Below are positions 26,465 through 60,739 of a stretch of 60,739 nucleotides of DNA, piece after piece (position 1 is the stretch's first letter; each line of letters starts with the position of its first letter). The notes under the pieces were generated by a model, which did not search any database, was not told where the DNA came from, and saw only the letters and a program-made list of their open reading frames with translations. Position numbers and translations under genes: made by a program. The DNA comes from an uncultured Spirochaetota bacterium (lineage in GTDB: Bacteria > Spirochaetota > Spirochaetia > Treponematales > UBA12059): positions 1-60,739 of the forward strand of contig CALMRC010000103.1 of NCBI GenBank assembly GCA_937873275.1, given 5' to 3'.

Positions 26465-28561
26465 GTGCCGCGAGATCGAGGCGATTCCGCCGGAACGGTC
26501 CCCCTCTCGGATCTCCGGGAAGAGGGGATGATCCACGTCACGACCGTACGCTCCCCGGCCTGCCGGGGCGTCCTGGAGTCGATCGAGGCGCCCCACCTTC
26601 CCCGGGGCTACCGCGCGATTTACGCCGAGGACATACCCGGGGAAAATCGCCTGGCCATCCTGGGGTCGGAAATCCCCATCCTGGCCCGAGACCGTGTCGC
26701 GTACGCGGGGGAACCGGTTCTCCTCCTGGCGGGACCCGATCCCGGACGGCTCGCGGAACTACGGGACGCCGTGCGGGTGGTCGTCCGGGAGGAGGATCCC
26801 GTCCTGGAGTGGGAATCCTTCGATCCGGACCAAGTGGTGCTCCGGAGGAGCGCCGATTCGGGGGATCCGGACGAAGCCTTCGCCGCGGCCGCGAGCGTCC
26901 TGGAAGCCCGCTATCGCACGGAATCCCAGGACCACCTGTATCCGGAACCCCAGGGCGCCCTCGCGGTCTTCGATTACGACAAGCTCGTCGTGAAGTGCGC
27001 GACCCAGTGGCCCTTCCACGTCCGGGACTGCGTCCGGTCCGTGCTCGGGGTCAAACCCCAGGAGATCCTCGTCCTTCCGACCCCCCTGGGCATTCCCATG
27101 GACGGCCGACTCTGGTATCCCTCGGTGCTCGCCTGCCATGCCGCCCTCGCGGCCTATCTGTGCCGCAAGCCGGCCCGCATCCTCCTTTCCCGGGACGAGG
27201 ATTTCCGGTTCACCCCCAAGAAGGCCCGCTCCTCCGTCACGCTTCGAGCGGGACTGGACGCGGAGGGCGGCCTGACGGTCCTGGAGGCGCGGATCGTCCT
27301 CAACACCGGGGCCTACGCCCCCCTGGCGGCGGAACTCCTGGAACAGGCCTGCCTTCAGGTCACCGGATCCCTGTCGGTTCCGAACCTGCGGGTCCACGGT
27401 TACGCGGTTCGCACCAACACCCCTCCCCTGGGGGCGTTTTCCGGAATGGGGGCCGCGCACTCCGCGTTCGCCGCGGAAAGCCTGGCCAGCCGGATCGCCC
27501 GGGAACGGGAGGAGGATCCCCTGGAATGGCGGTCCCGGCATTTCCTGCGCAAGGGTTCCGTCTTGATCACCGGGGAACGTCTCCGAGAGAAGACCTCCTT
27601 CGAGGAGATCGGCCGGATGCTCCGGGCCTCCAGCGACTTCGCCCGGAAGCACGGGAGCTACGAACTCATCCGCAAGCGGAGGTCCGCTATCCGGAGCGAG
27701 GAATCCCCCCGGGGAATCGGTATCGCCTTCGGGTACCAGGCGAACGGCGCCGCCTTCGCGGCCCTCGCCGCCGATTCCTTTTCCGTGGAAAGCACGCTGA
27801 ACAAGGACCTGTCCCTGGCGATCTCGACCAGCGCCATCGCGGGGGACGAGGGGATCCGGGCCATCTGGAGATCCACCGCGGCCGGCATCCTGGGCATTCC
27901 CGCCGGAAAGGTCTACTTCCCCGCCGTGAGCACCGCGGCGGTTCCCGATTCCGGGCCGTCCGTCCTGTCCCGAAACGTGGCCGTCATAAACCGGCTGATC
28001 GAACGCAGCTGCGTCGCCATCCGGGGACGCCGGTTCCGGTCCCCCCTGCCCATCTCTTCCCGGGCGGTCCACCGGGCCCGAAACCCGCTCCGATGGGAAG
28101 GGGATGTGGTCCGGGGCTATCCCTTCGAATCCCTGTCCTGCTGCGGGGCCGTGGTGGAGCTGGAGCTGAATCCCTGGAGCCTGGAGCCCCGGGTCCTGGG
28201 GGTCTGGATCTGCGTCGACGGTGGACGCATCGCGTCCGAGCGCTTCGCCCGGAGCGCCCTTTCGACCTCCGCGATCGCGGCCCTGGGTCAATGCATCCGG
28301 GAGAGGCTGCCCCTGGAAGGCGGCCGGGTACCCGAGGACGGGTACCGGGAATACGGGGTCCTGTCCCTTGCGGAGACGCCCCCCGTCGCGATAGAGTTCC
28401 TGCCTTGGGACGACGGCGATCCCCTGAAAGGGATCGGCGAGCTCCCCTTCCTGTGCGTTCCCGCGGCGTTTTCCGCCGCCGCCGCCCAGGCCTCGGACCT
28501 GAACGCCGACCGACTCCCCTTCGAAGGCGGGGAACCCCTAGCCGGAATGGACGGCCTATGA
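26465..28561 (+). CDS. Xanthine-dehydrogenase-family molybdopterin-binding subunit, divergent
   Basis: Large catalytic subunit (CoxL/XdhA-like) of a molybdenum hydroxylase. 698 residues from a GTG with GGGAG 5 bases upstream. The aldehyde-oxidase/xanthine-dehydrogenase a/b hammerhead (DRVAYAGEPVLLLAG) and the molybdopterin domains are visible. The C-terminal KGIGELPFLCVPA block carries the catalytic Glu. Changes: the GAFRGFGxPQ motif is GAFSGMGAAH, lacking the arginine, and the GQG segment that contacts the cofactor is not found (ISTSAIAGDEG stands near its place). The substrate is therefore probably not a purine, and activity is uncertain. Overlaps the 2Fe-2S gene by 4 bases. Confidence 0.82.
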   Translation: MPRDRGDSAGTVPLSDLREEGMIHVTTVRSPACRGVLESIEAPHLPRGYRAIYAEDIPGENRLAILGSEIPILARDRVAYAGEPVLLLAGPDPGRLAELRDAVRVVVREEDPVLEWESFDPDQVVLRRSADSGDPDEAFAAAASVLEARYRTESQDHLYPEPQGALAVFDYDKLVVKCATQWPFHVRDCVRSVLGVKPQEILVLPTPLGIPMDGRLWYPSVLACHAALAAYLCRKPARILLSRDEDFRFTPKKARSSVTLRAGLDAEGGLTVLEARIVLNTGAYAPLAAELLEQACLQVTGSLSVPNLRVHGYAVRTNTPPLGAFSGMGAAHSAFAAESLASRIAREREEDPLEWRSRHFLRKGSVLITGERLREKTSFEEIGRMLRASSDFARKHGSYELIRKRRSAIRSEESPRGIGIAFGYQANGAAFAALAADSFSVESTLNKDLSLAISTSAIAGDEGIRAIWRSTAAGILGIPAGKVYFPAVSTAAVPDSGPSVLSRNVAVINRLIERSCVAIRGRRFRSPLPISSRAVHRARNPLRWEGDVVRGYPFESLSCCGAVVELELNPWSLEPRVLGVWICVDGGRIASERFARSALSTSAIAALGQCIRERLPLEGGRVPEDGYREYGVLSLAETPPVAIEFLPWDDGDPLKGIGELPFLCVPAAFSAAAAQASDLNADRLPFEGGEPLAGMDGL

Positions 28562-56017: not shown

Positions 56018-56046
56018 TTGACAATTCCGGGTTCCTGACCTATTCT
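56018..56046 (+). promoter_or_regulatory. Promoter of the tungstate/molybdopterin operon
   Basis: TTGACA (56018-56023, perfect) and TATTCT (56041-56046), spacer 17. Start expected near 56053. This gives a leader of about 190 bases to the first ATG, much longer than other leaders here, as expected for a riboswitch. Confidence 0.8.
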
Positions 56047-56052
56047 GTCCCC

Positions 56053-56069
56053 GGCCGCCGTGGGCGGCC
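56053..56069 (+). other. 5'-terminal hairpin of the tup leader
   Basis: A perfect 7-bp stem GGCCGCC/GGCGGCC with a GTG loop, beginning right at the predicted transcript start. It could protect the 5' end from decay. It precedes the riboswitch candidate and does not overlap its closing stem. Confidence 0.55.
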
Positions 56070-56078
56070 TACATACCA

Positions 56079-56243
56079 TGGTCTCCGACCCGTCTCCGCC
56101 TAACCTTCCCGAACCGGGATCCAGGGCGAGCGGGCGGTGCCGGGCGGCTGGAGCCGAACCCTATCCGGGATTCCGCGCTCCGTTCGACCGGCCGAGGGTC
56201 CGGGGAGAAATCCCCGAGCCTCCCGTTCGGAAAGGAGAAACCA
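56079..56243 (+). promoter_or_regulatory. Moco/Tuco-type riboswitch candidate
   Basis: The 3' part (56192-56237) reads like the 3' part of the E. coli moaA leader. An outer 4-bp stem CCGA/TCGG (56192-56195 with 56227-56230) encloses a hairpin with a purine-rich AGAAAT loop (GGGG 56202-56205 with CCCC 56212-56215). It is followed by the conserved GCCTCCCG and then GGAAAGG. A closing stem pairs 56079-56086 (TGGTCTCC) with 56234-56243 (GGAGAAACCA), 8 bp with a 2-base bulge. This would bury the AAGGAG ribosome site (56232-56237). Further hairpins lie inside (TCCCG/CGGGA near 56107-56119; TCCAG/CTGGA 56120-56152). Ligand class and the fit of the 5' half to the Rfam model need checking. Context (tungstate transport, moaA, moaC) supports it strongly. 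Confidence 0.75.
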
Positions 56244-56245
56244 CG

Positions 56246-56338
56246 ATGACTCACCTCCCCATCCCTTCCAGGACAGACTCGGAATCGACTCCTCCGGGCC
56301 CCTCGGACCTCGACCGAACCCCGGGAGGAGAACGATGA
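56246..56338 (+). CDS. 30-codon leader ORF coupled to tupA
   Basis: ATG at 56246 has the best ribosome site in the leader (AAAGGAG, 8 bases upstream), the one the riboswitch stem would hide. The peptide begins MTHLPIPSRTDSESTPPG and ends in GGER; its stop overlaps the tupA start (ATGA at 56335). It has no signal peptide or known motif and is Pro/Ser-rich. Its role may be to carry the riboswitch decision to tupA by translational coupling, although tupA also has its own GGGAGGAG. No homologue is known to me. Confidence 0.5.
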   Translation: MTHLPIPSRTDSESTPPGPSDLDRTPGGER

Positions 56339-57159
56339 ACCGAAAAGCCCTGGTCCTCGCCCTGGCCGCCCTCTGCGCGGCCTCCGCCTTCGCGATGGGC
56401 GGCAAGGAAGCCGCCGCCCCGGCCAATCCCCGCATCAAGCTGGCCACCACCACCAGCACCGAGAATTCCGGCCTCCTCGGATACCTCCTGCCCCTCTTCG
56501 AGGCGAAGACCGGGTACAAGGTGGACGTCGTGGCCGTGGGCACCGGGGCGGCTCTCAAGCTCGGGGAGAACGGGGACGCCGACGTGGTCCTGGTGCACGC
56601 CCGGGCCCAGGAGGACGCCTTCGTGGCCGCAGGTCACGGAGTGGACCGCCGGGACGTCATGTACAACGACTTCATCATCCTGGGTCCCGCCTCGGATCCC
56701 GCCGGGATCGGAGCCGCCAAGTCCGCGGTCGACGCGTTCACCAGGATAGCGGGCGCGGGCGCGACCTTCGTTTCCCGGGGGGACAAGTCCGGGACCCACG
56801 TGAAGGAGCTGGACATCTGGAAGGCCGCCGGGATAAGCCCCGCCGGTGCCTGGTACAAGGAGGCCGGCCAGGGCATGGAGCAGGTCATCCTCATGGCCGA
56901 CGGCATGCCCGGGTACACCCTCGCGGACCGGGGGACCTGGCTGGCGGTCAAGGACAAGACCACCCTGAAGATCTGCTTCGAGGGCGACAAGGGCCTGTTC
57001 AATCCCTACGGGATCATCGCCGTGAATCCCGCGAAGTGGCCGGCCGCAAATACCGAGGGGGCCAAGGCCCTGATCGAGTGGATCACCAGCAAGGAAGGCC
57101 TTAAGGCCATCGAATCCTTCAAGCTGAACGGCGAGCAGCTCTTCTTCACGTACAAGTGA
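56335..57159 (+). CDS. tupA: Tungstate ABC transporter substrate-binding protein TupA
   Basis: 274 residues. Signal peptide MNRKALVLALAALCAASAFA; an FAMGGKE sequence after it has no lipobox Cys, so it is probably periplasmic rather than a lipoprotein. The mature protein starts with the TupA signature: IKLATTTSTENSGLL, with TTTST binding the oxyanion. VVAVGTGAALKLGENGDADVVLVHA and NDFIILGP follow. This distinguishes TupA from ModA and WtpA. It should deliver tungstate (tight) or molybdate (weaker). GGGAGGAG precedes the ATG. First protein of the operon after the leader ORF. Confidence 0.93.
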   Translation: MNRKALVLALAALCAASAFAMGGKEAAAPANPRIKLATTTSTENSGLLGYLLPLFEAKTGYKVDVVAVGTGAALKLGENGDADVVLVHARAQEDAFVAAGHGVDRRDVMYNDFIILGPASDPAGIGAAKSAVDAFTRIAGAGATFVSRGDKSGTHVKELDIWKAAGISPAGAWYKEAGQGMEQVILMADGMPGYTLADRGTWLAVKDKTTLKICFEGDKGLFNPYGIIAVNPAKWPAANTEGAKALIEWITSKEGLKAIESFKLNGEQLFFTYK

Positions 57160-57839
57160 TGAATCCGTTCCTGGGAGCCCTGGAGTTGATCCTGTCGGGG
57201 GATCGCGAGATCTTCCTGATCGCGGGCACGACCCTGCGGTTTTCCTTCTGGTCCACCGCCTTCTCCACGCTCCCGGGGCTGGCCCTGGGAATCCTCCTGG
57301 CGAACCACCGGTTCCCGGGCCGCCGGGCCGCCGCCGCGGTGGTGTCGAGCCTGACGGCCCTGCCCACCGTGGTGATCGGCCTGGCCGTGTACTCCCTCAT
57401 CTCCCGATCCGGCCCCCTGGGCCGCCTGGGATGGCTCTTCGCCCCCCCGGGGGTCGTGCTCGGCCAGACCCTCCTGGCCCTGCCCATCGTGGTGAGCCTG
57501 GTCTACACGGGGCTCTCCAAGCTGGACGCCCGGTTCACGGAAACCCTGGTGACCCTCGGGGCCGGCCGGCTCCGGCGCCTGGCCTCCACCCTCTTCGAGG
57601 CCAAGTACGTCCTGGCCTCGGCCCTGCTTAACGCCTTCGGGCGCGTCACCGGGGAGGTCGGGGTGTCCATGATGCTGGGAGGGAACATCCGGTGGTATAC
57701 CCGGACCATGACCACGACGATCGCCCTGGACACGAGCAAGGGGGAGTTCGAGCGGGCCCTGTCCCTGGGCATCCTCCTCCTGACCATATCCCTGGCCATC
57801 AACGCCCTCGTGCACGCGGCGGTGAAGCATGAGGAGTGA
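57159..57839 (+). CDS. tupB: Tungstate ABC transporter permease TupB
   Basis: 226 residues from the ATG at 57159, overlapping the tupA stop by one base; a GTG one codon earlier is an alternative. About five membrane segments: FLIAGTTLRFSFWSTAF, LPGLALGILLANH, VVSSLTALPTVVIGLAVY, VVLGQTLLALPIVVSLVY and LGILLLTISLAINALVH. The EAA loop facing the ATPase is seen as ETLVTLGAGRLRRL. Typical TupB size and sequence. It overlaps tupC by 11 bases. Confidence 0.92.
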   Translation: MNPFLGALELILSGDREIFLIAGTTLRFSFWSTAFSTLPGLALGILLANHRFPGRRAAAAVVSSLTALPTVVIGLAVYSLISRSGPLGRLGWLFAPPGVVLGQTLLALPIVVSLVYTGLSKLDARFTETLVTLGAGRLRRLASTLFEAKYVLASALLNAFGRVTGEVGVSMMLGGNIRWYTRTMTTTIALDTSKGEFERALSLGILLLTISLAINALVHAAVKHEE

Positions 57840-58539
57840 CGCCATCCTCTCGATCCGGAACCTCCTGTTCTCGTACGGAACCCGGGAGGTCCTCTCCATA
57901 CCGGAGCTGGACGTCCGGGCCGGGGAAACCTTGGCCCTGGTGGGTCCCAACGGATCCGGGAAGACCACCCTGCTCAAGCTCCTCAACGACCTGATCCGTC
58001 CCTCGTCCGGCTCGATCCGGTTCGAGGGAAGGCCCGCGGCGGGGGACCCGGGACTCCGGGCGCGGTCCGTCTACGTCCACCAGTCCCCCTTCCCCCTGGC
58101 GGGCACCGTGTACCGGAACGTGGCCTACGGCCTCCGGGTCCGGCGCGTCCCGGAGCCCGAGATCCGCCGCCGGACGGAGGGCGCCCTGGAGCTCCTGGGC
58201 CTGTCCGGCTTCGCCCGCCGGGACGCCAAGCGCCTGTCCGGGGGGGAGACCCAGAGGGTCGCCCTGGCCCGGGCCCTCGTCCTGGAGCCGGAAGTCCTGT
58301 TCCTGGACGAGCCCACGGCCCAGACGGACCGGGCCTCGGGGGACCGGATACGGACGGTCCTGGCGGACATCGCCGCCCGGGGCGGAACCACCATCGTCTT
58401 TTCCTCCCACGACGGGGCCTTCGCGGAGGCCCTGGCCGACCGCGCGGCCTTCCTGGAAGAGGGCCGCCTTCTCCGAATCGAAGCCGGCCGAGCCCGCCGC
58501 CCGGCCCCGAAATCCCACGCTCCGGAGTTCCCCGCATGA
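57829..58539 (+). CDS. tupC: Tungstate ABC transporter ATP-binding protein TupC
   Basis: 236 residues. Walker A GPNGSGKTT (39-47), Q-loop YVHQSPFPLAGTVYRNV, signature LSGGETQRVALARAL, Walker B VLFLDEPTAQTDR and the H-loop FSSHD are all present. No regulatory C-terminal TOBE domain as found in some ModC proteins. Completes TupABC. Overlaps moeA by 4 bases (ATGA), so transport and cofactor synthesis are translated in a chain. Confidence 0.93.
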   Translation: MRSDAILSIRNLLFSYGTREVLSIPELDVRAGETLALVGPNGSGKTTLLKLLNDLIRPSSGSIRFEGRPAAGDPGLRARSVYVHQSPFPLAGTVYRNVAYGLRVRRVPEPEIRRRTEGALELLGLSGFARRDAKRLSGGETQRVALARALVLEPEVLFLDEPTAQTDRASGDRIRTVLADIAARGGTTIVFSSHDGAFAEALADRAAFLEEGRLLRIEAGRARRPAPKSHAPEFPA

Positions 58540-59708
58540 CGCACCCCGACGAAGCCCTCGCCCTCATCGCCCGGCAGGAGGTGGACCTCCTGCCCGAGGA
58601 CCCCGACGAAGTCCCCCTGCACGGGGCCCTGGGCCGGGTCCTGGCCCGGGACCTGTACGCTCGGGTCGACCAGCCCCCCTTCGACAAGTCCGCCATGGAC
58701 GGATTCGCCTGGGGCGGGAAGCCCGCGGACTTCCTCCGGATCGTCCGGACCCTTCCGGCGGGGACCGTCACGGACCGGCCCCTGGCCCCCGGGGAATGCG
58801 CCCGGATCATGACCGGGGCCCCCCTGCCCCCGGGAGCCGATCGCGTCCAGCGGGTGGAGTGGACCGAGGAGGCGGACGGGCGGGTCCGGTTCACGAAGGC
58901 CGAGTCCGCGGACAACGTGATCCGCCGGGGGGAGAACCAGAAGGCCGGGGACCTCCTTTTGGGCCGCAGGCTCCTGCGGCCGGCGGACATCGGGATCCTG
59001 GCGTCCTCGGGGTACGACCGGGTGCCCGTCCAGCGGAAGCCCGTCGTCGGCATCCTCTCCACGGGGGACGAGCTCCGGACCTCCGGGGAGCCCCTGGAAC
59101 CGGGGACCATCTACGACTCCAACGGGCCCCAGTTGGCGGCCCAGGCCGCGGCGGCGGGCTGCGAGGTCCTCTTTTACGGCCGCTTCCCGGACCTCCCGGA
59201 ACCCCTCGAGGCCGCCGTGCGAACGGCCCTCTCGGAATGCGACCTGGTTCTCCTGTCCGGCGGGGTCTCCATGGGGGACTTCGACTACGTTCCCGAGGTC
59301 CTGGCCCGGTGCGGCGTTGAGAAGATCTTCCACAACCTGGCCATGAAGCCCGGGAAGCCCACCTTCCTGGGGCGGCGGGAGAACGTCTTCGTCCTGGGGC
59401 TGCCCGGGAACCCCGTCTCCACCTTCGTGAACTTCGAGATCCTGGGAAAGGCCGTGCTGGCCCGGCTCCGGGGACTGCCTCCGGACGTCCCCGCCGTGCG
59501 GGCCCGGCTCGCGGCGGGGATATCCCGGCGGGACGCCGAGCGGGTCGAGTTCCTGCCCGCCCGGTATTCCGGGGGAGAGATCCGGGTCTTGCGGTACTCG
59601 GGATCCTCCATGCTGAGCGTGTTGTCCGGGGCGAACGCCCTCATCCGGCTGGAGATCGGGCAAAAATCCCGGGAACCGGGAGAGGATATTGATGCGCGAC
59701 TCCTTTGA
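58536..59708 (+). CDS. moeA: Molybdopterin molybdenumtransferase MoeA
   Basis: Inserts molybdate or tungstate into adenylated molybdopterin. 390 residues, all four domains expected. Blocks: VDQPPFDKSAMDGFAW, GECARIMTGAPLPPGADRVQRVE, VIRRGENQKAGD, VGILSTGDELRTSGEPL, IYDSNGPQLAAQA, LLSGGVSMGDFDYV and FVLGLPGNPVSTFVNFEI. No fused C-terminal periplasmic-binding domain. Next to TupABC it may insert tungsten. It overlaps moaA by 17 bases. Confidence 0.94.
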   Translation: MTHPDEALALIARQEVDLLPEDPDEVPLHGALGRVLARDLYARVDQPPFDKSAMDGFAWGGKPADFLRIVRTLPAGTVTDRPLAPGECARIMTGAPLPPGADRVQRVEWTEEADGRVRFTKAESADNVIRRGENQKAGDLLLGRRLLRPADIGILASSGYDRVPVQRKPVVGILSTGDELRTSGEPLEPGTIYDSNGPQLAAQAAAAGCEVLFYGRFPDLPEPLEAAVRTALSECDLVLLSGGVSMGDFDYVPEVLARCGVEKIFHNLAMKPGKPTFLGRRENVFVLGLPGNPVSTFVNFEILGKAVLARLRGLPPDVPAVRARLAAGISRRDAERVEFLPARYSGGEIRVLRYSGSSMLSVLSGANALIRLEIGQKSREPGEDIDARLL

Positions 59709-60489
59709 CCGGACCATCGACTACCTCCGGATCTCGGTCACGGACCGGTGCAACCTCCGCTGCGTCTACTGCATGCCCGCCGAGGGGGTTCCCCTGCTTC
59801 GGCACGAGGACATCCTCAGCCTGGAGGAGATCGTCCGGGTGGCCCGGGCGGCGGCGGGGCTCGGGATCCGCAAGATCCGCCTGACCGGCGGGGAGCCCCT
59901 GGTCCGCAAGGGCATCCTGGACCTGGTCTCCCTCCTCCGGCCCATCCCCGGCCTGGAGATCCTGGGGATGACCACGAACGGCACCCTCCTGGCCCCCGTG
60001 GCCCGGGAGCTCCGCGATCGGGGCCTGGACTCGGTGAACATCTCCCTGGACACCCTGGACCCCGGGCGCTTCTCCGCCCTGACCCGGGGCGGCCGCCTGG
60101 CGGACGCCCTCGCGGGCATCGACGCCGCGGTCCGGGCGGGCATCCCGGTGAAGATCAACACCGTGGTCTCCGACGGGGATCCCGAGGGCGACCTGGAGCG
60201 GGTCGCCGCCTTCTGCGCGGAGCGGGGATTGGGGCATCAGCGGATCCGTCATTACGACCTGGCGGGGCAGAAGCAGGACCAGGACGATTTCGAGCGGCCG
60301 CCCCGGTGCGGGGACTGCAACCGGATCCGCCTCCTGGCGGACGGGACCCTGAAACCCTGCCTGCACACGGACCTCGCGGTTCCGGTGGATTTCTCGGACA
60401 TCGAAGGGAGCCTGCGCGAGTGCGTGCGGGCCAAGCCGGGCCGCGGCGCGGCCTGCACGACCCTGGCGGTCGGACAGATCGGAGGATAG
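59692..60489 (+). CDS. moaA: GTP 3',8-cyclase MoaA, compact form
   Basis: First enzyme of molybdopterin synthesis. 265 residues from the ATG at 59692 (GAGG about 7 bases before). N-terminal cluster C20, C24, C27 ([11 protein letters not shown]), [36 protein letters not shown] and VKINTVV are normal. C-terminal cluster C206, C209, C223 ([19 protein letters not shown]), with the substrate-binding Arg pair in CNRIR, and the final GG are intact. Missing are about 60 residues that usually lie between the INTVV strand and CNRxR, including the RFIExMP block. The usual length is about 325-340. I infer an active but trimmed enzyme. Confidence 0.88.
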
Positions 60490-60490
60490 G

Positions 60491-60739
60491 ATGGCGGAAA
60501 CGGACAGGTTGACCCACGTGGACGGGTCGGGACAGGCCCGGATGGTGGACGTCTCGGGCAAGCCCCGCGTGCGGCGCACGGCCCGGGCGGAGGGTTTCGT
60601 GCTCCTGGCGCCCGGGACCGTCCGTCTGGTGCGGGAGAACGCTCTGGCCAAGGGAGACGTCCTGGCCGCGGCCCGCCTGGCGGGCATCCTGGGCGCGAAG
60701 CGCACGGCGGACCTCATCCCCCTGTGCCACAACATCGAG
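60491..60739 (+). CDS. moaC: Cyclic pyranopterin monophosphate synthase MoaC, N-terminal part, cut by window end
   Basis: 83 codons are visible from the ATG at 60491 (GGAGG just before). The translation reads [24 protein letters not shown] and goes on to [29 protein letters not shown], all classical MoaC sequence, including the LCH motif at the active site. MoaC turns the MoaA product into cyclic pyranopterin monophosphate. The gene begins 1 base after moaA. The rest lies beyond the window. Confidence 0.96.

Follow-up and report, generated by a model that had tools for sequence, protein, structure and literature searches.

Here, we present an analysis of a riboswitch leader in a 60.7-kb stretch of DNA, which in its full length is referred to as the window. 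The leader contains an RNA of the Moco RNA motif family (RF01055) that has a P3 stem and lies upstream of an operon for tungstate transport and cofactor synthesis. Based on its sequence, the RNA is a certain member of the Moco/Tuco riboswitch class; this class is already known, and what sets the window RNA apart is the association of P3 with a tungstate-transport operon and an upstream open reading frame (uORF) between the riboswitch and tupA. The occurrence of P3 together with tup genes is the unusual point and was missed in the original prediction, which had instead singled out the pairing of Tup with cofactor genes; the latter is not unusual, as P3-lacking RNAs had already been tied to tungsten-using organisms in PMC2408646, and we find RF01055 RNAs in 44 tup leaders within the phylum and before seven tup operons of other phyla. 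We modestly favor that this P3-bearing RNA functions as a translational OFF switch for tupABC-moeA-moaA-moaC, with Moco as the most likely ligand.

Using cmscan, we found that the RF01055 match extends from 56071 to 56253 on the forward strand (49.6 bits, E 7e-9 for the window; gathering cut-off, 36 bits), covers the full length of the model (positions 1-135), and is the sole match of any Rfam family over cut-off in the whole window. It encloses the interval 56079-56243 for which a Moco/Tuco riboswitch had been predicted and a covariance-model search had been proposed as a check. Based on the sequence and the cmscan alignment, the RF01055 core is entirely present, i.e., CUCCGA (56083-56088), AGGG (56195-56198), CCUCCCG (56219-56225), GGAAAGG, and the GAAA loop on P4, with GGAAAGGAG at 56229-56237; the motifs named in the original prediction are all present. 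The CCUAA strand of the P2-bulge tetraloop receptor is located at 56099-56103, while the opposite strand is CCAGG and not UAUGG. Also, as is typical for RF01055 members, the RNA sits before genes for Mo/W transport and cofactor synthesis. The relatives with names that a TupA search recovered belong to the Spirochaetes, a phylum absent from the text of Regulski 2008 (PMC2408646). The window's genome contains a second RF01055 copy (L032; G000:C92:2746-2906, 48.6 bits), which is P3+ and precedes a YdhY/YdhV-type operon that also encodes FdhD and TatC; in this copy, no ATG follows at once after the Shine-Dalgarno (SD) sequence in P1, and its expression platform differs from that of the window RNA.

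As originally claimed, the leader is preceded by a promoter, which is of the sigma-70 type (TTGACA-17-TATTCT; 56018-56046, forward strand) with a -35 element at 56018-56023, a -10 element at 56041-56046, and a score of 10/12; two sites of such a score were found in a 601-bp scan versus 0.1 in shuffled sequences. The two congeneric genomes, G002 and G001, retain TTGACA and have TATCCT/TATTCT as the -10 element. The predicted transcript carries at its 5' end a perfect 7-bp hairpin (GGCCGCC-GTG-GGCGGCC; 56053-56069), which in G001 has one compensatory pair (GTCCGCC-GTG-GGCGGAC). In P1, the 5' strand GGUCUCC (56080-56086; supported by the cmscan alignment and P1 covariation) contributes UCUCC (56082-56086), which pairs with GGAGA (56234-56238), and GG (56080-56081), which pairs with CC (56241-56242), and an AA bulge splits the stem into 5 bp and 2 bp. 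The SD sequence AAAGGAG (56231-56237), located 8 nt 5' of the uORF ATG, has its GGAG within the 3' strand of P1 (56234-56242); the closing stem, therefore, pairs with a ribosome site as had been predicted, but over 7 rather than 8 bp. P2 spans about 56090-56137 based on segment folding, its exact register being ambiguous, as cmscan takes a neighboring register. P3 is extended (~54 nt; 56139-56192), as supported by anchored folding and arm complementarity in relatives, and occurs in each of the genus's three genomes, its distal part being highly diverged. Based on cmscan, P4 (56196-56221) is a hairpin with the GAAA tetraloop at 56207-56210, and the P5 segment CCCGUUCGG is at 56222-56230; all of these features are on the forward strand. 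No intrinsic terminator that could serve as the expression platform was found in the window leader. Many RNAs from the window's family (L041, L053, L059, L064, and others; genera g3 and g5) have a larger P5 loop owing to an additional hairpin between CCUCCCG and GGAAAGG.

Covariation in related leaders, the second check that had been proposed, is seen for both P1 and P3. Among 106 RNAs, and with shuffled 3' letters (column shuffles) as the null, P1 pairs 5 and 6 were complementary at frequencies of 0.61 versus 0.36 and 0.48 versus 0.35 in the shuffles, respectively (p 0.001 each); the inner pairs 1-3 were indistinguishable from the shuffles because the SD sequence is held in those pairs. The P3 arms of 27 P3+ RNAs were complementary at 5.4 of 6 nt versus 2.9 with the arms swapped between RNAs; because the arms were located by folding, some of this excess is built in, yet arms obtained by that folding and then swapped fall short of 5.4 of 6. 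In an unconstrained fold of the window leader, which is mildly stable (z -1.6 versus shuffles), P1 is not formed, and this counts against an OFF switch.

The original prediction placed a hidden ribosome site in front of the tup and cofactor operon. While there is an SD sequence in P1 and the operon is present, this site serves a 30-codon uORF (56246-56338, forward strand) and not tupA. The uORF stop and the tupA start share bases (ATGA), and a separate SD sequence for tupA (GGGAGGAG; 56323-56330) lies within the uORF. Because the site sequestered in P1 is that of the uORF, control of tupA must run via translational coupling or act otherwise. In each of the three genomes of the genus, the uORF is 30 codons long, and in G002 and G001 it likewise runs into the tupA start (ATGA/GTGA). 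By contrast, its peptide has diverged in G001 (MTHLPIPSRTDSESTPPGPSDLDRTPGGER versus MLHLLIPYRKAPDIPLPGLSDNIVLRGGNP), and we see no selection acting on the peptide because the differences between G000 and G002 all alter residues. Judging from these comparisons, it is the layout of the uORF rather than its peptide that is conserved, which suggests translational coupling to tupA.

From this architecture, we infer ligand identity, control direction, and coupling as follows. An abundant cofactor, most likely Moco, would stabilize P1, and the stabilized P1 would sequester the AAAGGAG that starts the uORF; with the uORF untranslated, tupA would be silent by loss of translational coupling. When the cofactor is scarce, P1 would open, the uORF would be translated, and ribosomes would reach tupA. 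In the E. coli moaA leader, P1 and the SD sequence overlap and Moco represses (PMC2408646). It is improbable, in our estimate, that the aptamer is real and tupA nevertheless escapes it, such that the uORF alone is controlled, tupA uses its own SD sequence, and the element is a relic. The strong GGGAGGAG before tupA would fit such an escape, as would the confinement of the uORF to the window genus, tupA lying directly after P1 in the other genera examined. However, uORF length and the stop/start overlap are exact in all three genomes despite the diverged sequence, as expected if coupling matters, and the aptamer core is fully conserved. We notice that with a good SD sequence of its own, tupA could be translated without coupling, which counts against coupling.

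The operon begins with tupA (56335-57159), for which the NCBIfam TupA model (NF041772) is the only matching model, yet below its cut-off (238 versus 400 bits); the best PDB relative of the encoded tungstate-binding protein is the Geobacter tungstate-binding protein 3lr1 (E 4e-90). TupA relatives prefer tungstate, which we count against Moco as the ligand. The following genes, likewise on the forward strand, are tupB for the permease (57156-57839; NF041773, 184 bits versus 74 for ModB), tupC for the ATPase (57829-58539; profile match and operon position), moeA (58536-59708; profile match), a short form of moaA encoding 266 aa (59689-60489; TIGR02666, 248 bits), and moaC (60491-60739; TIGR00581), which is cut off by the window end; the starts of moeA, moaA, and moaC overlap or adjoin the preceding genes. 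In the window's genome, no ModA was found, while genes for enzymes of the Mo type (five PF02738, i.e., Mo-hydroxylase type, and three PF00384) and of the W type (five of the AOR family) are present. Because Mo-hydroxylase-type genes are present and ModA is absent, Tup may be a molybdate route as well. For the same reasons, and with Tup as the known oxyanion importer, sensing of Moco would be sensible if P3 marks Moco. We assign only a small probability to the idea that one RNA senses both metal forms, Tup being the only recognized Mo/W importer and the operon making pterin for both cofactors: the lack of ModA and the coexistence of both enzyme types speak for it, but in E. coli the related RNA discriminates against Tuco (PMC2408646), and our importer search covered ModA, so that further oxyanion transporters (WtpA or MolA types) may exist. 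A gene for a xanthine-dehydrogenase-family molybdopterin-binding subunit (PF02738) lies at 26831-27538 (forward strand) in the window without a riboswitch.

The only published rule that relates P3 to the metal is that of Regulski 2008 (PMC2408646), in which P3+ RNAs are linked with Moco or pterin genes only, and P3-lacking RNAs with tungsten use, i.e., with tungsten-using organisms recognized by tupA and tupB; this rule rests on correlation, and we found no paper that settles it. The window RNA carries P3, the Moco-type mark of these subgroups, and not the Tuco-type mark, which is the lack of P3. Therefore, we consider Moco a likelier ligand than Tuco, and the original suggestion of the tungsten cofactor as natural ligand is not supported. 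However, the first gene controlled is tupA, as in 21 other P3+ leaders, which departs from an association with Moco or pterin genes only. P3 in front of tupABC implies that either the rule is not general or tungstate transporters can be run by a molybdenum signal.

To survey P3, we read the segment between P2 and P4 in an anchored fold and by eye and assigned targets by tblastn; a core regex over 80 TupA loci was used solely to locate tup leaders outside the order. Left out were G010 and G017, which are unclassified, and G036_C105, which at 27.7 bits is below cut-off and was set aside; the tup leaders of the former two (L047 in G010:C21 and L057 in G017:C502) have short, weak RF01055 matches (31 and 26 bits, respectively) in which P2/P3 are not parseable. 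With counts that are non-independent, leaders of one operon being related by descent, tup leaders within the phylum were split into 22 P3+ (including the window leader) and 22 P3-; P3 was present in 13 of 14 YdhV-type operons (4Fe-4S protein, YdhV, FdhD; one P3-) and lacking before canonical AOR (0/6), pruA (0/12), and SBP_bac_8/Oxidored_molyb operons (0/13), i.e., in 0/31 together. Outside the phylum, none of seven tup and none of four AOR leaders was P3+ versus six of six gamma-proteobacterial moaA leaders, which house known Moco RNAs, and these counts carry the same dependence. In G056, the tup and ydhV leaders are P3+ and the pruA and Oxidored_molyb leaders are P3-, while in G020 only the ydhV leader is P3+ and the tup, pruA, and Oxidored_molyb leaders are P3-. 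P3, thus, partitions targets within single genomes, and it is the tup operons that break the rule that P3+ RNAs control Moco genes only.

On the TupA tree, the P3 state has changed at least five times, and three of these changes are forced by well-supported (starred) branches. In genus g16, Rfam's own alignment shows a P3 in G580 and its deletion in G610. Compared with L248 (G610), L249 (G580) and L278 (G606) have gained P3 as a short hairpin inserted between CGA and GAG, with the remaining aptamer nearly unchanged. Tup leaders can, then, acquire P3 through a small insertion inside a single genus, and such an insertion may leave the ligand unchanged. The presence of ModA or AOR genes showed no pattern with P3 in tup leaders among 22 genomes. 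It is possible, if rather doubtful, that the ligand of the same OFF switch is the tungsten cofactor and that P3 is a late stabilizing insertion with no role in metal specificity. The even split of orthologous tup leaders in the phylum with its repeated changes, the variation inside one genus with the rest of the aptamer alike, and the lack of P3 in tup leaders elsewhere are in line with this, as is the tungstate specificity of Tup in characterized cases. Moreover, deletion of P3 alone abolished regulation and did not switch specificity (PMC2408646). On the other hand, sorting of P3 by target in G056 and G020 is not readily given by neutral insertion, and the E. coli P3+ RNA gives no response to Tuco (PMC2408646).

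Moco as the ligand also receives some backing from the YdhV-type operons. E. coli YdhV is a molybdoenzyme that prefers Mo (PMC9103625), and the YdhV-type proteins of the relatives share 51-53% identity with it; for that reason, we rejected YdhV-type AOR leaders as plain tungsten targets that would refute the P3 rule. By this analogy, the association of P3 with YdhV leans toward P3 as a Moco mark. It does not settle the ligand because a Class V enzyme of a Tup-bearing bacterium took mostly W, Class V being able to take either metal (PMC13328260), and because a ModABC operon (G484) and molybdopterin-domain genes have P3- RNAs in front of them.

We tentatively speculate that within the phylum the tup-moe-moa operon switched repeatedly between Tuco and Moco sensing via gain or loss of P3, with an otherwise constant aptamer, and that in the window genus the readout also came to pass through the length-conserved coupling uORF. 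If so, these leaders would amount to a series of natural mutants in which to ask how a single RNA distinguishes molybdenum from tungsten. Should P3 not be a Moco mark, the 2008 rule would break down in the window's operon. In either case, closely related leaders of one and the same operon with and without P3, and both kinds in one genome, provide matched pairs for the question of P3 and Mo versus W.

Among the closest known systems, the Moco riboswitch of E. coli moaA (RF01055, P3+) shares with the window RNA the five-stem aptamer, the GAAA loop, P3, the SD sequence in the 3' strand of P1, and a cofactor-synthesis operon downstream. However, the E. coli RNA controls moaA directly, whereas in the window a uORF comes first and the tungstate transporter heads the operon; moreover, the P2-P3 joint of the phylum's tup leaders, with GA or GGU preceding P3, is longer than that of the E. 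coli RNA. Tuco-type tup leaders (e.g., Desulforudis L212, Halanaerobium L217, and Syntrophomonadaceae L215) precede tupABC as in the window but lack P3. P3+ tup leaders in the same order (G001, G002, G008, G025, G068, and others) share the P3+ aptamer and the tupABC-moeA-moaA order with the window, and among them only G001 and G002, of the window's genus, have the uORF.

Several other RF01055 targets were observed. In 12 leaders of the order (G011:C21:17892, G016:C17:239676, G006:C152:7822, and nine more, including L048, L072, and L042), a P3-lacking RNA lies directly before pruA, whose product, L-glutamate gamma-semialdehyde dehydrogenase, matches TIGR01236 at 752 bits. Placing an NAD enzyme that does not depend on W under a cofactor riboswitch resembles isozyme switching; we found no paper on a link between RF01055 and pruA. 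In another phylum, an ORF for a succinate-semialdehyde-type NAD(P) aldehyde dehydrogenase is located ~150 nt 3' of a P3-lacking RNA (L220, Desulfuromonadaceae). Thirteen P3-lacking RNAs (L074, L088, L082, L079, L062, and others) precede an operon for an SBP_bac_8 protein, an Oxidored_molyb-domain protein, and an ABC permease, and in one of these operons the Oxidored_molyb-domain protein has a CxxCH motif. Two P3+ RNAs of family f3 (L267 and L255; G298 and G556) lie before genes for a FecCD-type ABC permease and an ATPase, possibly a MolBC-like molybdate importer. Finally, a 6-kb stretch at L251 (G484:C264) contains three P3-lacking RNAs, the downstream targets being an iron-type alcohol dehydrogenase gene, a ModABC operon, and a tup operon.
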